From: Bacteroidota bacterium
GTDB taxonomy: Bacteria; Bacteroidota; Bacteroidia; NS11-12g; UBA955
NCBI GenBank assembly: GCA_018333525.1
Contig: JAGXTF010000012.1
Coordinates: 1 to 64,000 of the forward strand
Reading direction: 5' to 3'
Length of the DNA: 64,000 bases
Shown: positions 33,903 through 44,204 of the stretch, piece after piece
Layout of the letters: each line of letters starts with the position of its first letter
Numbering within the stretch: the stretch's first letter is position 1
Program-made: the position numbers and the translations under genes
Notes under the pieces: generated by a model
What the model was told of the DNA's origin: nothing
Database searches by the model: none
What the model saw: the letters and a program-made list of their open reading frames with translations, nothing else

Positions 33903-34280
33903 TTATGAATTCAGCCAGGTAATGGCGTCGGACTCATTTTCGAAATACTTCTTGCGTGCTGTATCTGAAGTAGATATCAGACTGAAGAATTCGCGTTTGT
34001 TTGGAAGTACAATGGCAATTTTATCGATACCATTGTGCAACAGAGGGAGTTCCAGACTTGTTTTGGCCCAATCCTGCATATGATTACTCACATGATGGCT
34101 GAGCTCGTGGTTGTGAACCAGAACTTTGGTTACATTGTTGCTTACGGCGTGTGCTACAAATTGCAGAAAGGCAGATTTCATTGCCTCTTCGCTATTGATT
34201 TCATTGCTCAGTGAAATCTTCGCGATTCCACCATCCAACAGGTGTACACTAAATCCCGGGGTACTTTGTATTTGACTCAT
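33903..34280 (-). CDS. Small STAS/SpoIIAA-like protein
   Basis: The start is chosen at MSQIQSTPGFSVHLL (125 residues); the frame extends seven codons to an earlier ATG. The pattern (beta-rich opening IAKISLSNEIN, then VSNNVTKVLVHNHEL, then IDKIAIVLPNKREF and a C-terminal helix) resembles the STAS/SpoIIAA-like fold found in many Bacteroidota hypothetical proteins. No catalytic residues are evident. It lies 117 bases downstream of the FAD oxidase gene on the same strand and could be transcribed with it, though it need not belong to that cluster. Confidence 0.65.
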   Translation of the reverse strand: MSQIQSTPGFSVHLLDGGIAKISLSNEINSEEAMKSAFLQFVAHAVSNNVTKVLVHNHELSHHVSNHMQDWAKTSLELPLLHNGIDKIAIVLPNKREFFSLISTSDTARKKYFENESDAITWLNS

Positions 34281-34397
34281 GGCTAATAAATTAAATGCCA
34301 ATGTAGCACTTTGTTAACGTAATTCAAAACGAAAAACATCGCTTATCGTTGAATTTCATAAAATTACATATTTAAGATATCTTTTTAATGCAGAATT

Positions 34398-35750
34398 TTA
34401 ACTGAAATCCACAGGTTCGGCATTCAGCGTACCATACAACAAACCATCCGGGTTGTGTAGCTTGGACAAGTGCTCGATTTCCGTTGCACCTGTGCCGTAA
34501 TACTTTACAGAGATATTGTTTTCAGCCGGATCTGCATAATTCGGATATAGAAATCCATTCAAAAAGGGTTGCAATTTTTGATACGTTTCGTTTACCCATT
34601 GTGTAGCTCCGTAACGTTCCTGGTCTTCAAACCAAACACCCATAATGCTCAGAATAAAATTGGCATCCCTGTGTGCGAATGCAATTTCTGCATGATCCGG
34701 ATGTTGAATTTTCCCACTCAGTGTATCCAGATTGATTCTACAGTAAGGTGTAGGGCATTTGGAATAGGCATCTAATAGTATTTGTATGACTTCTGCAGCG
34801 ATATTCCCCTGAATGAGCCCATTCTTCCATTGAAAGCAGGGACCTTCAACAATCGTACTTGCATTGATCTGCTGCATTTCTGTATAGGAATAGGTGCCAA
34901 TATTATGAAATACCGGTTCAGCCCATTGAAGCATGGTTTGAAAGTAAGACATGCCTATTTCAGAATCTCCGTTATACATGCCATAAATCTTGATAATCGG
35001 ACCCATTTCCTGGTTGATGCGCAAGTACAGATTCAGAGCTTCCGGTGCATCCTGGAGCATTTTGTCGTAGAGAGGAAGGATTTCTTCTGCATGGTTCAAA
35101 TGCCAGCAAATATTACCGCCGACAACCTGTGCGGGAATGTCAGATAACCTGAATTTCAAACTGGTAACAATGCCGAAATTGCCCTGGCCGGCACCTTGCA
35201 GGGCTCGATACAGAGAAGTATTGGATGTTTTGTTGCATACCAAAACTTCACCACGCATATTGATCAATTCGGCCTCCAAAAGGTGATCGCAGGTTAGACC
35301 AAGTGATCTGGACAAAAAACCATTTCCGCCTCCGAGCGTGAGACCGGCTATCCCTACAACAGGGCAATCCCCGAGTGGAATGGCTTTGAGGTTTGGATTC
35401 AATGCAGCATCAATTTCGTGTGCCAAAGCTCCGGCACCAATTTCTACTGAATTTTCCTTCCAGTTGGGAGTAATGGTTTTGATTTTTCGCATGGATACCA
35501 CCAATCCATTTTCATTGAGACCTGAGCCCACGGTACTATGGCCACCATTTAAAACAGAAATGCGAATTTGATTTTGTTGCGCAAATAATACAGCTTGTAC
35601 AATATCCTCATTGGATTCTGCAACCAGAACTGCAATTGGTTTTTTTTGAAAATGACCGTTAAAAGTGAAGAGATTTTCGGAATATCCGGAATCTTCTTGT
35701 AAATAAATTTTACCCTTGCATGAAGCGCTCAGGACATTCCAGTCCAACAT
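34398..35750 (-). CDS. Berberine-bridge-type FAD-linked oxidase
   Basis: This 450-residue flavoprotein of the vanillyl-alcohol oxidase/BBE superfamily has the PP-loop region (RISVLNGGHSTVGSG, about residues 72-86), whose His normally binds the 8-alpha position of FAD. CPVVGIAGLTLGGGNG near residues 129-144 has Cys in the position of the second covalent link in bicovalent members. The BBE C-terminal segment (YYGTGATEIEHLSKLHNPDGLLYG) is present. There is no signal peptide, so it is cytosolic. It starts 22 bases after the Trp-Tyr repeat peptide gene and must share its transcript. It is a good candidate for oxidising that peptide, although BBE enzymes also oxidise sugars and alkaloids. Confidence 0.9.
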   Translation of the reverse strand: MLDWNVLSASCKGKIYLQEDSGYSENLFTFNGHFQKKPIAVLVAESNEDIVQAVLFAQQNQIRISVLNGGHSTVGSGLNENGLVVSMRKIKTITPNWKENSVEIGAGALAHEIDAALNPNLKAIPLGDCPVVGIAGLTLGGGNGFLSRSLGLTCDHLLEAELINMRGEVLVCNKTSNTSLYRALQGAGQGNFGIVTSLKFRLSDIPAQVVGGNICWHLNHAEEILPLYDKMLQDAPEALNLYLRINQEMGPIIKIYGMYNGDSEIGMSYFQTMLQWAEPVFHNIGTYSYTEMQQINASTIVEGPCFQWKNGLIQGNIAAEVIQILLDAYSKCPTPYCRINLDTLSGKIQHPDHAEIAFAHRDANFILSIMGVWFEDQERYGATQWVNETYQKLQPFLNGFLYPNYADPAENNISVKYYGTGATEIEHLSKLHNPDGLLYGTLNAEPVDFS

Positions 35751-36422: not shown

Positions 36423-38402
36423 ATGCATAGAAATTACTTCCTCCTCATTTTATTTGTCTTTAATTTATCCTTATTCTCTCAAAACAACAACGCATTGCAA
36501 TGGAGCAATGACGTGCGGGAAATACAGGAGTTTCAGACAATTCCGGACCGAAATTTTAGTCCGAAATCGGCCATGTCACAGTCCAACTGGAGGGTGCATC
36601 ATTCAAATGAATCGAATTTGTCTGCCGACACAAATACCTATTGGGCGCGATTTGCATTGGTGAATCAAACGGATGCAGATCATACCTGGATTTTGGAATT
36701 GGATAAATGGACCGACGTTCAATTGTATATAAACGGAGATGATAAAAATCCAAAACGAACCGGACATTTTGTTGCCTTTGACAAAAAAGATTTTGCACAT
36801 GCAAATTACAATTTGTTGCGGGTGGATATACAAGCCGGAGACACAGTTTCCTGTTTGTTAAGGCTGGAGAAGTCCAACGCTTATTTCGCGGTTCCTGCCA
36901 GCTTTGAATTTAAGGCCATGAGTCTGGAAAAGTATTTTTCCAATCAATTTAAAAGCAGGATTTGGCTGGGATTGTTTCTCGGTTTTTATCTGATAATGCT
37001 CGCTCATAATTTATTTATTTACTGGTCTACCAAAGACCATTACTATGTGCATTATTTAATCATACTGGCCACACTGTTGTTGCTTACGCTACACAACTTC
37101 GGATATACGGTTTCCCTGCTGCATTTTATTCCCAATTACGGGTTTATCCATGCAAAGGTTCAATTTATTCTCAGTGCAATACTCGGTGTAAATATGATAT
37201 TATTTACCCAGCAGTTTCTGCATTTGAAAACCGAATTTCCGCGCATTCATAAATTGTTGCGCATATTGATGATTCTGGTTATTCTAATGCCATTACCCTC
37301 CTTCTTCGGACAGGCAGAAGTGAATGAAAAAATTTCCGGAATGTTGGGGACACTTACCATGATAGTGATCATGATTACTGCGGTTAAATCCTGGCTCGCG
37401 AAATTTCCTTCATCCGATTATTTTGTAGTGGGATACGGCGCATTTTCAACCGGAATTGTAGTTTTATTGCTGAGTTTTCTCGGTATTTTACCGGCCTATT
37501 TTCTGGAATATTATCCTATGAATATCGGTTCCAGTATTGAAATGATTTTCTTTTCCATTGCGTTGGGGAACCGAATTAATTTACTGGCGAGAGATAATGA
37601 AGAAAAACAAAAACTTATCATTACACAGCTTCGTGCCAATGAAGAATTGCAGACAAAAGTGAACCGGGAACTGGACCAAAAGGTAAAAGAACGCACGATA
37701 GAAATTGAAAAGCAAAAAATAGAAATTGAGGAGCAACGCGATTTGGTTGCCATGGAGAAAAAGAAATCCGATGAATTGATTCTGAATATTTTGCCAGCAG
37801 CAACTGCTGAAGAATTGAAGCTTACGGGAAAGGCAAAACCCCAATACTATGAATCTGCTTCCGTATTATTTGCCGATATAGTTTCATTCACCAAAAAAGC
37901 TATGGAAGCAGAGGCAAATGAAATTGTTGCAGATCTGGATTATTGTTTTGGTGCATTTGACACCATAATGATGAAATACAATATGGAAAAAATTAAAACC
38001 ATAGGCGACGGTTATCTGGCAGTTGGAGGCATTCCTATTGCAAATGAAAGCAATCCCATGGATGCCATACGGGCAGGGATGGAAATGCAGGAATTCATGA
38101 AATCCTTTGCTGCTGCGAGAAAAGCGAAGGGAAAAAATGAATGGGGAATTCGAATTGGAATTCACACAGGACCAATCATTGCCGGAGTTGTAGGTAAAAA
38201 TAAATTTGCCTATGATGTTTGGGGCGATACCGTAAATACTGCATCGCGAATGGAATCTGCAGGAGAAAGCGATCGTGTGAATGTTTCTGAAAGCACCTAT
38301 TTATTGGCAAAAAATCATTTTACATTCGCTCACAGGGGAAAAGTGCATGCAAAAAATATTGGTGAAATGGACATGTATTTTGTGGTGAAAGAATTGAATT
38401 AA
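36423..38402 (+). CDS. Membrane receptor with 7TMR-DISM-like part and class III adenylate cyclase
   Basis: This 659-residue protein has a signal peptide (residues 1-19) and a periplasmic beta domain (20-175, with YWARFALVNQTDADHTWILEL). Seven membrane helices follow (about 180-385), then a coiled coil (390-455, KQKIEIEEQRDLVAMEKKK) and a class III cyclase domain (about 460-659). The catalytic domain has the metal site SVLFADIVSFT and EKIKTIGDGYLAVGG with Lys. YDVWGDTVNTASRMES has the Asp and Arg expected for ATP rather than GTP. It should make cAMP in response to an external ligand. The next gene starts 14 bases later, so the receptor heads the VioB-like/halogenase operon. Confidence 0.92.
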   Translation: MHRNYFLLILFVFNLSLFSQNNNALQWSNDVREIQEFQTIPDRNFSPKSAMSQSNWRVHHSNESNLSADTNTYWARFALVNQTDADHTWILELDKWTDVQLYINGDDKNPKRTGHFVAFDKKDFAHANYNLLRVDIQAGDTVSCLLRLEKSNAYFAVPASFEFKAMSLEKYFSNQFKSRIWLGLFLGFYLIMLAHNLFIYWSTKDHYYVHYLIILATLLLLTLHNFGYTVSLLHFIPNYGFIHAKVQFILSAILGVNMILFTQQFLHLKTEFPRIHKLLRILMILVILMPLPSFFGQAEVNEKISGMLGTLTMIVIMITAVKSWLAKFPSSDYFVVGYGAFSTGIVVLLLSFLGILPAYFLEYYPMNIGSSIEMIFFSIALGNRINLLARDNEEKQKLIITQLRANEELQTKVNRELDQKVKERTIEIEKQKIEIEEQRDLVAMEKKKSDELILNILPAATAEELKLTGKAKPQYYESASVLFADIVSFTKKAMEAEANEIVADLDYCFGAFDTIMMKYNMEKIKTIGDGYLAVGGIPIANESNPMDAIRAGMEMQEFMKSFAAARKAKGKNEWGIRIGIHTGPIIAGVVGKNKFAYDVWGDTVNTASRMESAGESDRVNVSESTYLLAKNHFTFAHRGKVHAKNIGEMDMYFVVKELN

Positions 38403-40669: not shown

Positions 40670-42550
40670 ATGGAAATTAAAATACCGGATAAATTAACAG
40701 ACGTAGATATTTTACTTCCGGCCAGCGGTGAAATAATAATTCGCAGAAACAGGGATGTAAATCAAATTAATGGTATAGCACCGGAGTTATTTATTAAAAT
40801 ATGGAACAACATAGACGGAATAAAAAGCACTACAGAAATTCACGCCCAATGTGCAGAGGATTTAACTCCTGAAAATCTAACAGATTTCTTGAACACCATC
40901 AACGGTATATGCATTCGTTTTGTTGGTGAAAAATTAGAAACCGTTCAGTTACATAAATCTCCGGAGGCCGGAGAAAAAATGATACCCTTACTGGCGCCGG
41001 AGGATTTTGATGGTGTTTGTGTGAGGAATTTAGATGCCGGAAAAGATGCAGATCAGATTTATAAAAAAGTGGTAGTGGTGGGTGGCGGTACGGCAGGTTA
41101 TTTTACTGCATTGGCATTGAAGAAAAAAAGACCGGAATTACAGGTAACTATTGTTGAAAGTACTGGTATTCCGGTAATTGGGGTAGGGGAAGCAACCACT
41201 CCTGTGATACTGTCTTTTTTGCATGAAGTACTGGATATCCATCCCATGGATTTATATGAAGCGGTAAGACCTTCATGGAAACTGGGTATTAAATTCGATT
41301 GGGGTCTTCCCGGTGATTATCACTTTTTTAATCCATTTGGATTAAATAATCTTTTAGAAAGCGATTATTATAACAACGGCCTGGATTATGTAACATTGGG
41401 AACCACCCTGATGATGCAGGGGAAGGGATTAATAGCGAGAAAGAGAAACGGAGAATATTATTCTCTGATGAATCAGGTGGGATATGCCTATCATTTGGAA
41501 AACAGAAATCTGATTCAATTTTTGAGAAGTATTATTCTGAAATCGGATATTGAATGGCTGGACCGTGTGGTGAAAAATGTGAAAGTGGATGAAAATGGAG
41601 ATGTTTCAGCAATTGTTACGGACCGGGAAGAGGAGTTGTCGTATGACCTGTATATCGATTGCAGCGGTTTCAAATCTCTGTTACTGGAAGGTGCAATGAA
41701 AAGTGAATTTATTCCATTTGATAAAACACTTTTTACGGATCGGGCAGTAACGGGAATTTACAATATTGAAGGGAATCCAAATCCTTTTACATTGGCACAG
41801 AGCATGCACCATGGCTGGAACTGGAATATTCCGGTGGATGGGGAAAACCACAGGGGATATGTGCATGCTTCTGCTTTTTGCACCGTGGATGAAGCCATGG
41901 CAGAAATGCAAAAAGTAAATCCCCAGATTACCGATTTTAAAGTAGTTCATTTCAAGTCCGGAAGGCACAGGGAATTTTGGAAAAACAATGTAATCGCCAT
42001 TGGCAATTCTTATGCATTTGTAGAACCCTTGGAATCCACCGGTCTGCATATGATTATTGAAAGTGTAAAGACATTGCTGAAAAATCTTCCGGCTGAAAAG
42101 GGGAATAACACAGCCATTCGCGAAGCAGTGAACCAAAAAGTTGCCATGCAATGGGATTACATCAAATGGTTTTTGGGAATACATTTTAAATACAACAAAA
42201 AATTTGATACCCCATATTGGAAACATTGCCGAAATGAAACAGATGTTTCCGGTGTGCAGGACTTGCTGGACCTCTATGGACAAATAGGACCACTCACCAT
42301 TATTGCAGAAAATGATCCGGAAATATTGCAGTCTTTGGTACATGACCAGGTTTTTGGTGCTCACGGTTTTGATTATATGCTGATGGGCCAGAAAGTGCCT
42401 TGGGGCAAGCAGTTTCGTGTAGTACCTGAAAAAAGCGACTATTTGGAAAAGAGAAAAAAATGGCAGGAAATTGCAGATGAAGCATTAAGCCATAAAGAAT
42501 CGCTGGATTTGTTCAAAAACCATCCCGATTTAATTCGAGAAATAATATGA
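40670..42550 (+). CDS. Flavin-dependent tryptophan halogenase-like enzyme with N-terminal RRE/PqqD-like domain
   Basis: This 626-residue protein has a halogenase domain starting near 133 with the FAD loop VVVGGGTAGYF, then GVGEATTP (171-178) and SWKLGIKF, where K204 aligns with catalytic Lys79 of PrnA. GWNWNIP (GWxWxIP) and EPLESTGL, with the Glu/Ser of PrnA 346-347, are also present. An active halogenase or flavin oxygenase is expected. Residues 1-95 are extra. GIAPELFIKIWNNIDG and TEIHAQC, then LTDFLNTINGICIRF, follow the PqqD/RiPP-recognition-element pattern. This suggests that the enzyme grips a peptide leader. A separate flavin reductase is not visible in the window. The stop overlaps the next start by four bases. 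Confidence 0.85.
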   Translation: MEIKIPDKLTDVDILLPASGEIIIRRNRDVNQINGIAPELFIKIWNNIDGIKSTTEIHAQCAEDLTPENLTDFLNTINGICIRFVGEKLETVQLHKSPEAGEKMIPLLAPEDFDGVCVRNLDAGKDADQIYKKVVVVGGGTAGYFTALALKKKRPELQVTIVESTGIPVIGVGEATTPVILSFLHEVLDIHPMDLYEAVRPSWKLGIKFDWGLPGDYHFFNPFGLNNLLESDYYNNGLDYVTLGTTLMMQGKGLIARKRNGEYYSLMNQVGYAYHLENRNLIQFLRSIILKSDIEWLDRVVKNVKVDENGDVSAIVTDREEELSYDLYIDCSGFKSLLLEGAMKSEFIPFDKTLFTDRAVTGIYNIEGNPNPFTLAQSMHHGWNWNIPVDGENHRGYVHASAFCTVDEAMAEMQKVNPQITDFKVVHFKSGRHREFWKNNVIAIGNSYAFVEPLESTGLHMIIESVKTLLKNLPAEKGNNTAIREAVNQKVAMQWDYIKWFLGIHFKYNKKFDTPYWKHCRNETDVSGVQDLLDLYGQIGPLTIIAENDPEILQSLVHDQVFGAHGFDYMLMGQKVPWGKQFRVVPEKSDYLEKRKKWQEIADEALSHKESLDLFKNHPDLIREII

Positions 42551-43596
42551 ATTCCGAAAATCGCGAAAAAATAATTCAGGAATTACAGGAAAAACTGATT
42601 GTAACCATTGAACTGGAACATTCCACAATTCCTCCTTATTTATATGCGTACTGGTCTGTAAAGGACAGGTCTTCTGAAACAGCCAGAGTACTGCTGGAAG
42701 TGGCAAAAGAAGAGATGATGCATATGGCAATGGCATGTAATATTTTACATGCCACCGGAGGTACTTTAAAATGCAACCATCCGGGTTTTATTCCGGATTA
42801 TCCATGTGCTTTACCAGGACATAGCAAAACGCAAACTCCATTTATTGTGGGATTAAGAAAATTATCCCTGTTAAGTATCGTTACATTTCTTGAAATTGAA
42901 AGACCACGAGCCGCCAATCCTCTGGTGAAATTAAATAAACCGGGAACGAATAAACCTATTGATGCAGGCTGGGAAACCATAGCTGATTTTTATATGGAAA
43001 TTACAGCACTTATAGCCAAATTGGATGACAGTGATTTTCAAAAAGGAAGGCAATTAAACAACACGGATAAACCAGATAACAGTGGAATATTGTTTGCCGT
43101 ACAGAGCAAAGCGGATGCATTAAAATGTGTTGCTGAAATAATAGAACAGGGAGAAGGATTTGGATTTCAGGATGCCGATTCTGAGGAATCCCATTTTTAT
43201 CGTTTCGTGGATATTTACCGAAAAATGGGGGGCACCGGAAAAATTGAAGATGGCATTTTCAATGCAAACGAATTGCGAGATACCTATGATAAAAATGTGT
43301 ATGCGGAATTTGAAAAACAAATTATACATCTGGTACCAAATCCGAGAGAAGACAAATACAGTACCGAGGCATATGAATGGCAGAATAAAAGATTTAATTC
43401 CATTTATAGCCGCATGCTGGATGACTTATGCAGTGGAATGTTAATGGATAACCCTGAAATTGGCGGAGCGATAAAAGCCATGTTTGCATTGGGAAGACAT
43501 GCCGATGCCATTATGAGTATACCTGCCTGGAGAGAAGTGGAAACTGCGCATTTCGGACCCAGTTTTGAATATTTGGAACCAGGCGAAAGAATCTGA
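42547..43596 (+). CDS. Ferritin-like protein resembling VioB C-terminal domain
   Basis: This 349-residue protein is of the ferritin-like type found at the C-terminus of VioB/RebD/StaD (iminophenylpyruvate dimer synthase domain). Helix 1 carries ELEHSTIPPYLYAYW, helix 2 KEEMMHMAMACNIL, and later helices FLEIERP and EESHFYRF. Together these give the two E-x-x-H pairs expected for a di-iron or related metal centre. It is translationally coupled to the halogenase (ATGA overlap). With the VioB N-terminal-like protein it rebuilds a complete VioB in two parts. In this setting it may act on a modified Trp/Tyr peptide rather than on free indolepyruvate imine, which is inference. Confidence 0.85.
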   Translation: MNSENREKIIQELQEKLIVTIELEHSTIPPYLYAYWSVKDRSSETARVLLEVAKEEMMHMAMACNILHATGGTLKCNHPGFIPDYPCALPGHSKTQTPFIVGLRKLSLLSIVTFLEIERPRAANPLVKLNKPGTNKPIDAGWETIADFYMEITALIAKLDDSDFQKGRQLNNTDKPDNSGILFAVQSKADALKCVAEIIEQGEGFGFQDADSEESHFYRFVDIYRKMGGTGKIEDGIFNANELRDTYDKNVYAEFEKQIIHLVPNPREDKYSTEAYEWQNKRFNSIYSRMLDDLCSGMLMDNPEIGGAIKAMFALGRHADAIMSIPAWREVETAHFGPSFEYLEPGERI

Positions 43597-44204
43597 TGAA
43601 AAAAGGATTATGGTTGCCTTTTTTGATTAGTGTAGCAATTGTAATTGCAATATTTCTTCTATTTCCTGAAGCCGAAAATTATTTTCAAATCGCATTACAA
43701 AATGTTAAAGAGAGCAAATCCACCTTTTCAGTTTGGAGTTTTTTAATTCTCACTTCCGACATTTTTTTACCCGTTCCATCCAGCATTGTTATGTACTTCA
43801 ACGGTTTGGTTCTTGGAGTAATTTGGGGTTTTTTGCTTTCGATGTTTTCTGTGTTTTTATCTTCGGCTTTAGGATATTATGCAGGTAGAATTGGAGCCTG
43901 GGGTGTGAAAGCAGTAGAGGATGAAAAAGCAAATGCTTTTATGGAGAAATACGGAATGTTGGCAATTTTGATTAGCAGGGGAATACCGGTACTTTCTGAA
44001 AGTATTTGTTTTGTGAGTGGCTACAGGAAATTCCCTTTTGGAAAATATATGGCATATTCCGTGCTCGGTTATTTGCCGGTTGCAATCATATATGCATGCT
44101 TTGGTACTTTGGGTGAAAGCCAGGATTTGTTTTTGATATCTTTTGGTGCGTCCCTGTTGTTTTCCGGATTGATTTATGTGGCAGTTTCCCGATGGAGAAA
44201 GTGA
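43596..44204 (+). CDS. DedA/VTT-domain membrane protein
   Basis: This 202-residue integral membrane protein has about five hydrophobic segments. It also has the VTT/SNARE-associated Golgi signature (FLPVPSSIVMYFNGLVLG, LGYYAGRIG, and SRGIPVLSESICFVSGYRKFPFGKY in pieces). DedA-like proteins move or flip lipids, and some act as transporters. The start overlaps the preceding stop (TGATG), making it the last gene of the halogenase operon. It could serve export or self-protection for the cluster product, but a chance neighbour cannot be excluded. Confidence 0.9.
   Translation: MKKGLWLPFLISVAIVIAIFLLFPEAENYFQIALQNVKESKSTFSVWSFLILTSDIFLPVPSSIVMYFNGLVLGVIWGFLLSMFSVFLSSALGYYAGRIGAWGVKAVEDEKANAFMEKYGMLAILISRGIPVLSESICFVSGYRKFPFGKYMAYSVLGYLPVAIIYACFGTLGESQDLFLISFGASLLFSGLIYVAVSRWRK

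Follow-up and report, generated by a model that had tools for sequence, protein, structure and literature searches.

A halogenase with an additional N-terminal domain

The first 64,000 nucleotides of contig JAGXTF010000012.1 of a Bacteroidota bacterium (assembly GCA_018333525.1; hereafter the window) contain a gene encoding a predicted flavin-dependent tryptophan halogenase with an extra N-terminal domain. The ATG of this gene is located 16 nt downstream of the stop codon of the preceding gene. The Pfam domain Trp_halogenase (PF04820) is complete and spans residues 133–575 (E = 1.3e-105), hence about 130 residues stand in front of the core. A preliminary description of the DNA had placed the start of the core near residue 133, in agreement with the Pfam match, and had reported that the catalytic Lys204 and the motifs GWNWNIP and EPLESTG are kept. 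Alignment with MibH and RebH bears this out: K204, GWNWNIP (residues 382–388), and E452 within EPLESTG (452–458) match the equivalent residues of both enzymes. Together with GGGTAG, the protein thus has the GxGxxG motif, the catalytic Lys and Glu, the WxWxIP motif, and the full domain expected of a PF04820 halogenase.

A close ortholog of the halogenase (60% identity) was identified on contig CAKZLB010000028.1 of G429, a metagenome-assembled genome (MAG) from the same order and another family. It shows the same architecture, with about 32% identity in the N-terminal domain and 68% in the core. As an independent MAG from another family carries the same fusion, a chimera or a mis-called start codon is excluded; an origin of the fusion from contaminating or chimeric DNA was therefore rejected. 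The comparison confirms the predicted fusion of an N-terminal PqqD-like domain to a complete tryptophan halogenase core.

Homology of the N-terminal domain to PqqD

The preliminary description had proposed that the N-terminus contains a domain resembling PqqD, i.e., a recognition element (RRE) of ribosomally synthesized and post-translationally modified peptides (RiPPs). A profile of the N-terminal domain was built from two sequences, the window halogenase and its ortholog, and compared by hhalign with PqqD proteins. Seven PF05402 proteins gathered from the class gave a probability of 78; with an eighth PqqD protein (L051) added, the probability was 87 with a score of 35.4 over 63 columns. The maximal score among 300 column shuffles was 17.6, and the reversed profile scored 8.4. 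As single sequences, the window domain and its ortholog reached 26.5 and 25.0, respectively, and the best of 482 real 97-residue decoys reached 22.9.

Conversely, the N-domain profile was searched against 296 genomes. The top match outside the halogenases was L051 (E = 0.0018), a genuine PqqD protein (PF05402, E = 4.8e-19). Forward and reverse tests are not fully independent because L051 joined the comparison profile after the reverse match; the seven-protein run with a probability of 78 contains no L051. Profile comparison in both directions, controlled by shuffles and decoys, thus supports the predicted homology of residues 1–95 to PqqD, and the proposed RRE-like domain agrees with PF05402 at the profile–profile level. 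The N-terminal motif of the preliminary description was found as written except for its spacing, which is W-x3-DG and not W-x4-DG. Modifying enzymes with a fused RRE domain of this family are already known. RREs bind leader peptides by adding a strand to their own sheet and bring the core peptide to the enzyme (PMC7470986).

The gene of L051 itself is located near an open reading frame which, by eye, resembles a lasso-peptide B2 protein (L064, G119:C12); another family of Bacteroidota may thus have a lasso cluster here.

Phylogeny of the halogenase core

The best solved relative of the core is MibH (5uao), with 394 bits and E = 8.8e-117 as compared to 205 bits for the next chain; likewise, the core of the ortholog gave 362 bits with MibH and 202 with the next solved halogenase. 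Identity of the core is 41% to MibH and 31% to RebH. An IQ-TREE tree of ten rows, in which MibH and RebH are represented by the aligned segments of their structure matches and one viral row forms a long branch, contains a starred clade of four rows: both fused enzymes, MibH, and a halogenase from a Streptomyces plasmid. RebH is located outside this clade. Judged by sequence, the core is a MibH-type halogenase.

5UAO is the structure of the peptide halogenase MibH (PMC7336383). MibH, the tryptophan 5-halogenase of NAI-107, and ChlH of chlorolassin both act on Trp in RiPPs. The match to MibH starts at residue 28 of the MibH chain which leaves no room for an RRE, in contrast to the window halogenase. 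The Streptomyces enzyme (L034, NZ_CP107797.1) is encoded on a linear plasmid in a cluster of the nonribosomal peptide synthetase (NRPS) type, which also encodes proteins of the tryptophan dioxygenase family and an amidohydrolase.

A second, plain tryptophan halogenase of the window's assembly (L002, G000:C8:1334-2821, minus strand) has no PqqD-like extension. It clusters with a Sphingobium enzyme in the tree, and its contig of 3.5 kb may be a contaminant.

A putative precursor peptide

About 4.7 kb from the halogenase gene, a small gene encodes a putative precursor peptide with the repeats TPGWYLNE, TPGWYLNE, and GAGWYIRE. Its counterpart in G429 has 55 residues, two TPGWYxHE repeats, and the same position in the locus; two TPGWYxxE repeats are therefore common to both peptides, and GAGWYIRE is confined to the window. 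Within the motif, synonymous codon changes were found for Thr (ACT/ACA/ACG), Pro (CCG/CCA), and Tyr (TAT/TAC). The putative leader comprises approximately residues 1–33, with conserved SV and DF positions. In both genomes, a FAD oxidase gene follows directly behind the peptide gene. Hence, a short precursor gene, with a predicted boundary between leader and core, is conserved beside modifying enzymes as in RiPP clusters. A class-wide scan of 395 genomes for paired PGWY repeats found them in the window's own genome only; a looser paired-repeat pattern, searched directly, occurred once in this genome and once in G429.

An RRE-bearing halogenase with a conserved GWY-repeat peptide nearby resembles a peptide natural product pathway in which the halogenase has its own substrate holder. 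The suggestion of a peptide substrate in the preliminary description is thus strengthened by the syntenic, conserved PGWY-repeat peptide and by the grouping of the core with MibH, both of which make such a substrate plausible.

The conserved gene block

Seven genes are arranged in identical order and orientation in the window and G429. They encode a SpoIIAA-like protein, the FAD oxidase, the peptide, a seven-transmembrane (7TM) cyclase, a protein resembling the N-terminal half of VioB, the PqqD-halogenase, and a ferritin-like protein resembling the C-terminal half of VioB (Table 1). The halogenase stop codon and the start codon of the ferritin-like gene overlap as ATGA in both loci. A VTT-domain gene behind the ferritin-like gene (43596-44204) is not common to both loci and thereby helps to delimit the block.

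Table 1. Genes of the conserved block and domains of the halogenase, in window coordinates.
Feature	Position	Strand	Remarks
SpoIIAA-like (STAS) small protein	33903..34301	-	PF11964, E 2.2e-5; ortholog 46%
FAD_binding_4 oxidase	34398..35750	-	starts ~20 nt past peptide gene; ortholog 51%
Putative precursor peptide, 65 aa	35773..35970	-	three GWY repeats; ortholog 35%
7TMR-DISM receptor with nucleotide cyclase domain	36423..38402	+	first gene of divergent operon; ortholog 59%
VioB N-half-like protein, 745 aa	38417..40654	+	TIGR04492 N-terminal part via ortholog and relatives; ortholog 53%
Halogenase gene, uninterrupted open reading frame	40670-42550	+	626 aa
PqqD-like (RRE) domain, halogenase residues 1-95	40670..40954	+	hhalign, decoys, reverse profile search
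Variable linker, halogenase residues 96-131	40955..41062	+	23% identity to ortholog
Predicted flavin-dependent tryptophan-halogenase core, MibH clade	41063..42547	+	PF04820, MibH match, tree
Ferritin-like protein, VioB C-half-like, 349 aa	42547..43596	+	PF12902, E 4.5e-49; ortholog 46%

VioB-like proteins and the FAD oxidase

The ortholog and relatives of the VioB N-half-like protein match the N-terminal part of TIGR04492 (E = 2.6e-5 to 3.5e-10), and the ferritin-like protein matches positions 662–834 of this model (E = 1.7e-5). The matches are partial and reach 16–38 bits as compared to a cut-off of 1250, and therefore do not indicate full-length VioB proteins. The two neighbors of the halogenase, or their orthologs, thus correspond to separate parts of the model for the iminophenyl-pyruvate dimer synthases VioB, StaD, and RebD; unlike these enzymes, they are split over two genes, score far below the cut-off, and have no recognized Trp oxidase partner. 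The nearest curated family of the FAD oxidase is BagK/FevA1 (bagremycin/ferroverdin), again far below the cut-off.

RebH-type halogenases operate beside VioB homologues in bisindole pathways, and here the VioB-like N- and C-halves are encoded on either side of the halogenase gene. The substrate could accordingly be free Trp or an indole intermediate of a violacein- or rebeccamycin-like pathway with split VioB-like proteins, and the peptide would be unrelated. We consider this quite improbable: the core groups with MibH and not with RebH, none of the block proteins was recognized as a VioA/RebO-type L-Trp oxidase, VioB-N-like genes with no adjoining halogenase or ferritin partner occur elsewhere in Bacteroidota, and the peptide is syntenic and conserved.

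Other VioB-N-like genes (L060, L061, L062, L063) share 25–53% identity with that of the window. At the loci inspected, such genes are located beside or near a signaling gene: a 7TM-DISM cyclase in the window, G429, and G064, a 7TM-DISM histidine kinase in G190, and a GAF-cyclase together with a FIST protein in G076 and apparently also in G111. At the inspected loci other than the window and G429, no adjacent halogenase, ferritin, or PGWY peptide was found, nor were PGWY-like peptides detected near the other VioB-N genes. The pairing of signaling and VioB-N genes may be an older module.

Proposed function

We think it probable, though by no means assured, that the locus is a RiPP-like cluster of a kind not described before, whose RRE-fused flavin-dependent halogenase modifies Trp of the PGWY repeats. 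The N-terminal RRE would capture the leader of the precursor and thereby offer the (S/K)TPGWYxxE repeats at the C-terminal end of the peptide to the active site of the halogenase; there, chlorine or bromine may be attached to the Trp indoles. Subsequently, Trp and Tyr side chains might be oxidized or cross-linked by the FAD oxidase together with the two VioB-like proteins, i.e., the VioB-N and ferritin-like proteins. Leader binding and halogenation of the repeats are inferred, as are the halide, the regiochemistry, and the later oxidations.

Several observations weigh against this proposal. Upon hmmscan of the window N-terminus alone against Pfam and NCBIfam, no PqqD match was obtained; the single-sequence scan of the ortholog gave PqqD at a non-significant E of 0.17, and a profile search of the PDB with the N-domain yielded no match. 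A full-length AlphaFold2 model built from two sequences was poor (predicted local distance difference test score of 34) and unusable for a fold search. Furthermore, two orthologs are known, those of the window and G429: searches of 395 genomes of the phylum, 108 genomes of the order, and viral contigs found G429 only, as did two scans of genome contigs, the second with short exact peptide patterns. No leader peptidase or exporter, which are usual and not obligatory in a RiPP cluster, was recognized in the seven-gene block; they may be encoded elsewhere. Since a MibH-clade relative belongs to an NRPS-type cluster, the clade alone is no proof of a ribosomal substrate. Additionally, MibH acts once the leader is removed (PMC12615548), and ChlH, 58% identical to MibH, is leader-independent (PMC12518702); enzymes of this clade therefore need no RRE.

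The failure of the N-terminus to match any curated family as a single sequence, and the fact that DNA-binding regulators may be mistaken for RREs in such searches (PMC7470986), would also fit another small domain merely resembling PqqD, e.g., a DNA-binding winged helix or a domain docking to a carrier or partner protein. This appears highly improbable, as the top outside match of the profile is a PqqD, shuffles and decoys score far lower, and the block showed no carrier domain.

The leader-independent action of MibH and ChlH, from which the proposed RRE-guided enzyme would differ, suggests another scenario: the PqqD-like domain is real, and the halogenase nevertheless works independently of the leader, the RRE being vestigial or serving chiefly to bring the peptide to the FAD oxidase and the VioB-like proteins. 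Vestigial RREs exist (PMC7470986), and the core is far better conserved between the orthologs than the N-domain. Rapid divergence of the N-domain also fits co-evolution with a diverging leader, and the motif residues IWNxIDGxK are kept in the N-domains of both orthologs; we therefore regard this scenario as rather unlikely.

Leader-guided halogenation of precursor Trp, as we propose for the RRE-fused enzyme, has precedents in the RiPP brominase SrpI, which needs the leader and has neither an embedded nor a trans-acting RRE (PMC10858898), and in the leader-dependent brominase MppI, for which an RRE is unmentioned (PMC11791876); a fused RRE is reported for neither. The main texts of two RRE-Finder papers, including PMC7470986, contain no RRE–halogenase fusion. 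A search of openly readable literature pairing PqqD or RRE with halogenase returned no report of such a fusion; an earlier record is possible. Both parts are known; the fusion and the cluster appear to be unreported.

The balance is even as to whether the locus represents a new RiPP class of Bacteroidota, defined by a PGWYxxE repeat precursor, an RRE-fused halogenase, a FAD oxidase of the BBE type, and two split VioB-like proteins for oxidative coupling; its products would be halogenated, oxidized, or cross-linked Trp–Tyr peptides, and a 7TM receptor-cyclase would control the pathway. The described RiPP halogenases MibH, ChlH, SrpI, and MppI find their substrates without a fused RRE, a point made explicitly for SrpI. 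If the proposal is true, an RRE-carrying halogenase would be a natural modular catalyst, and swapping or adding leaders could steer Trp halogenation to chosen peptides. Furthermore, the locus would mark a new type of RiPP-like cluster in which a VioB-like dimerization system apparently acts near a ribosomal peptide.
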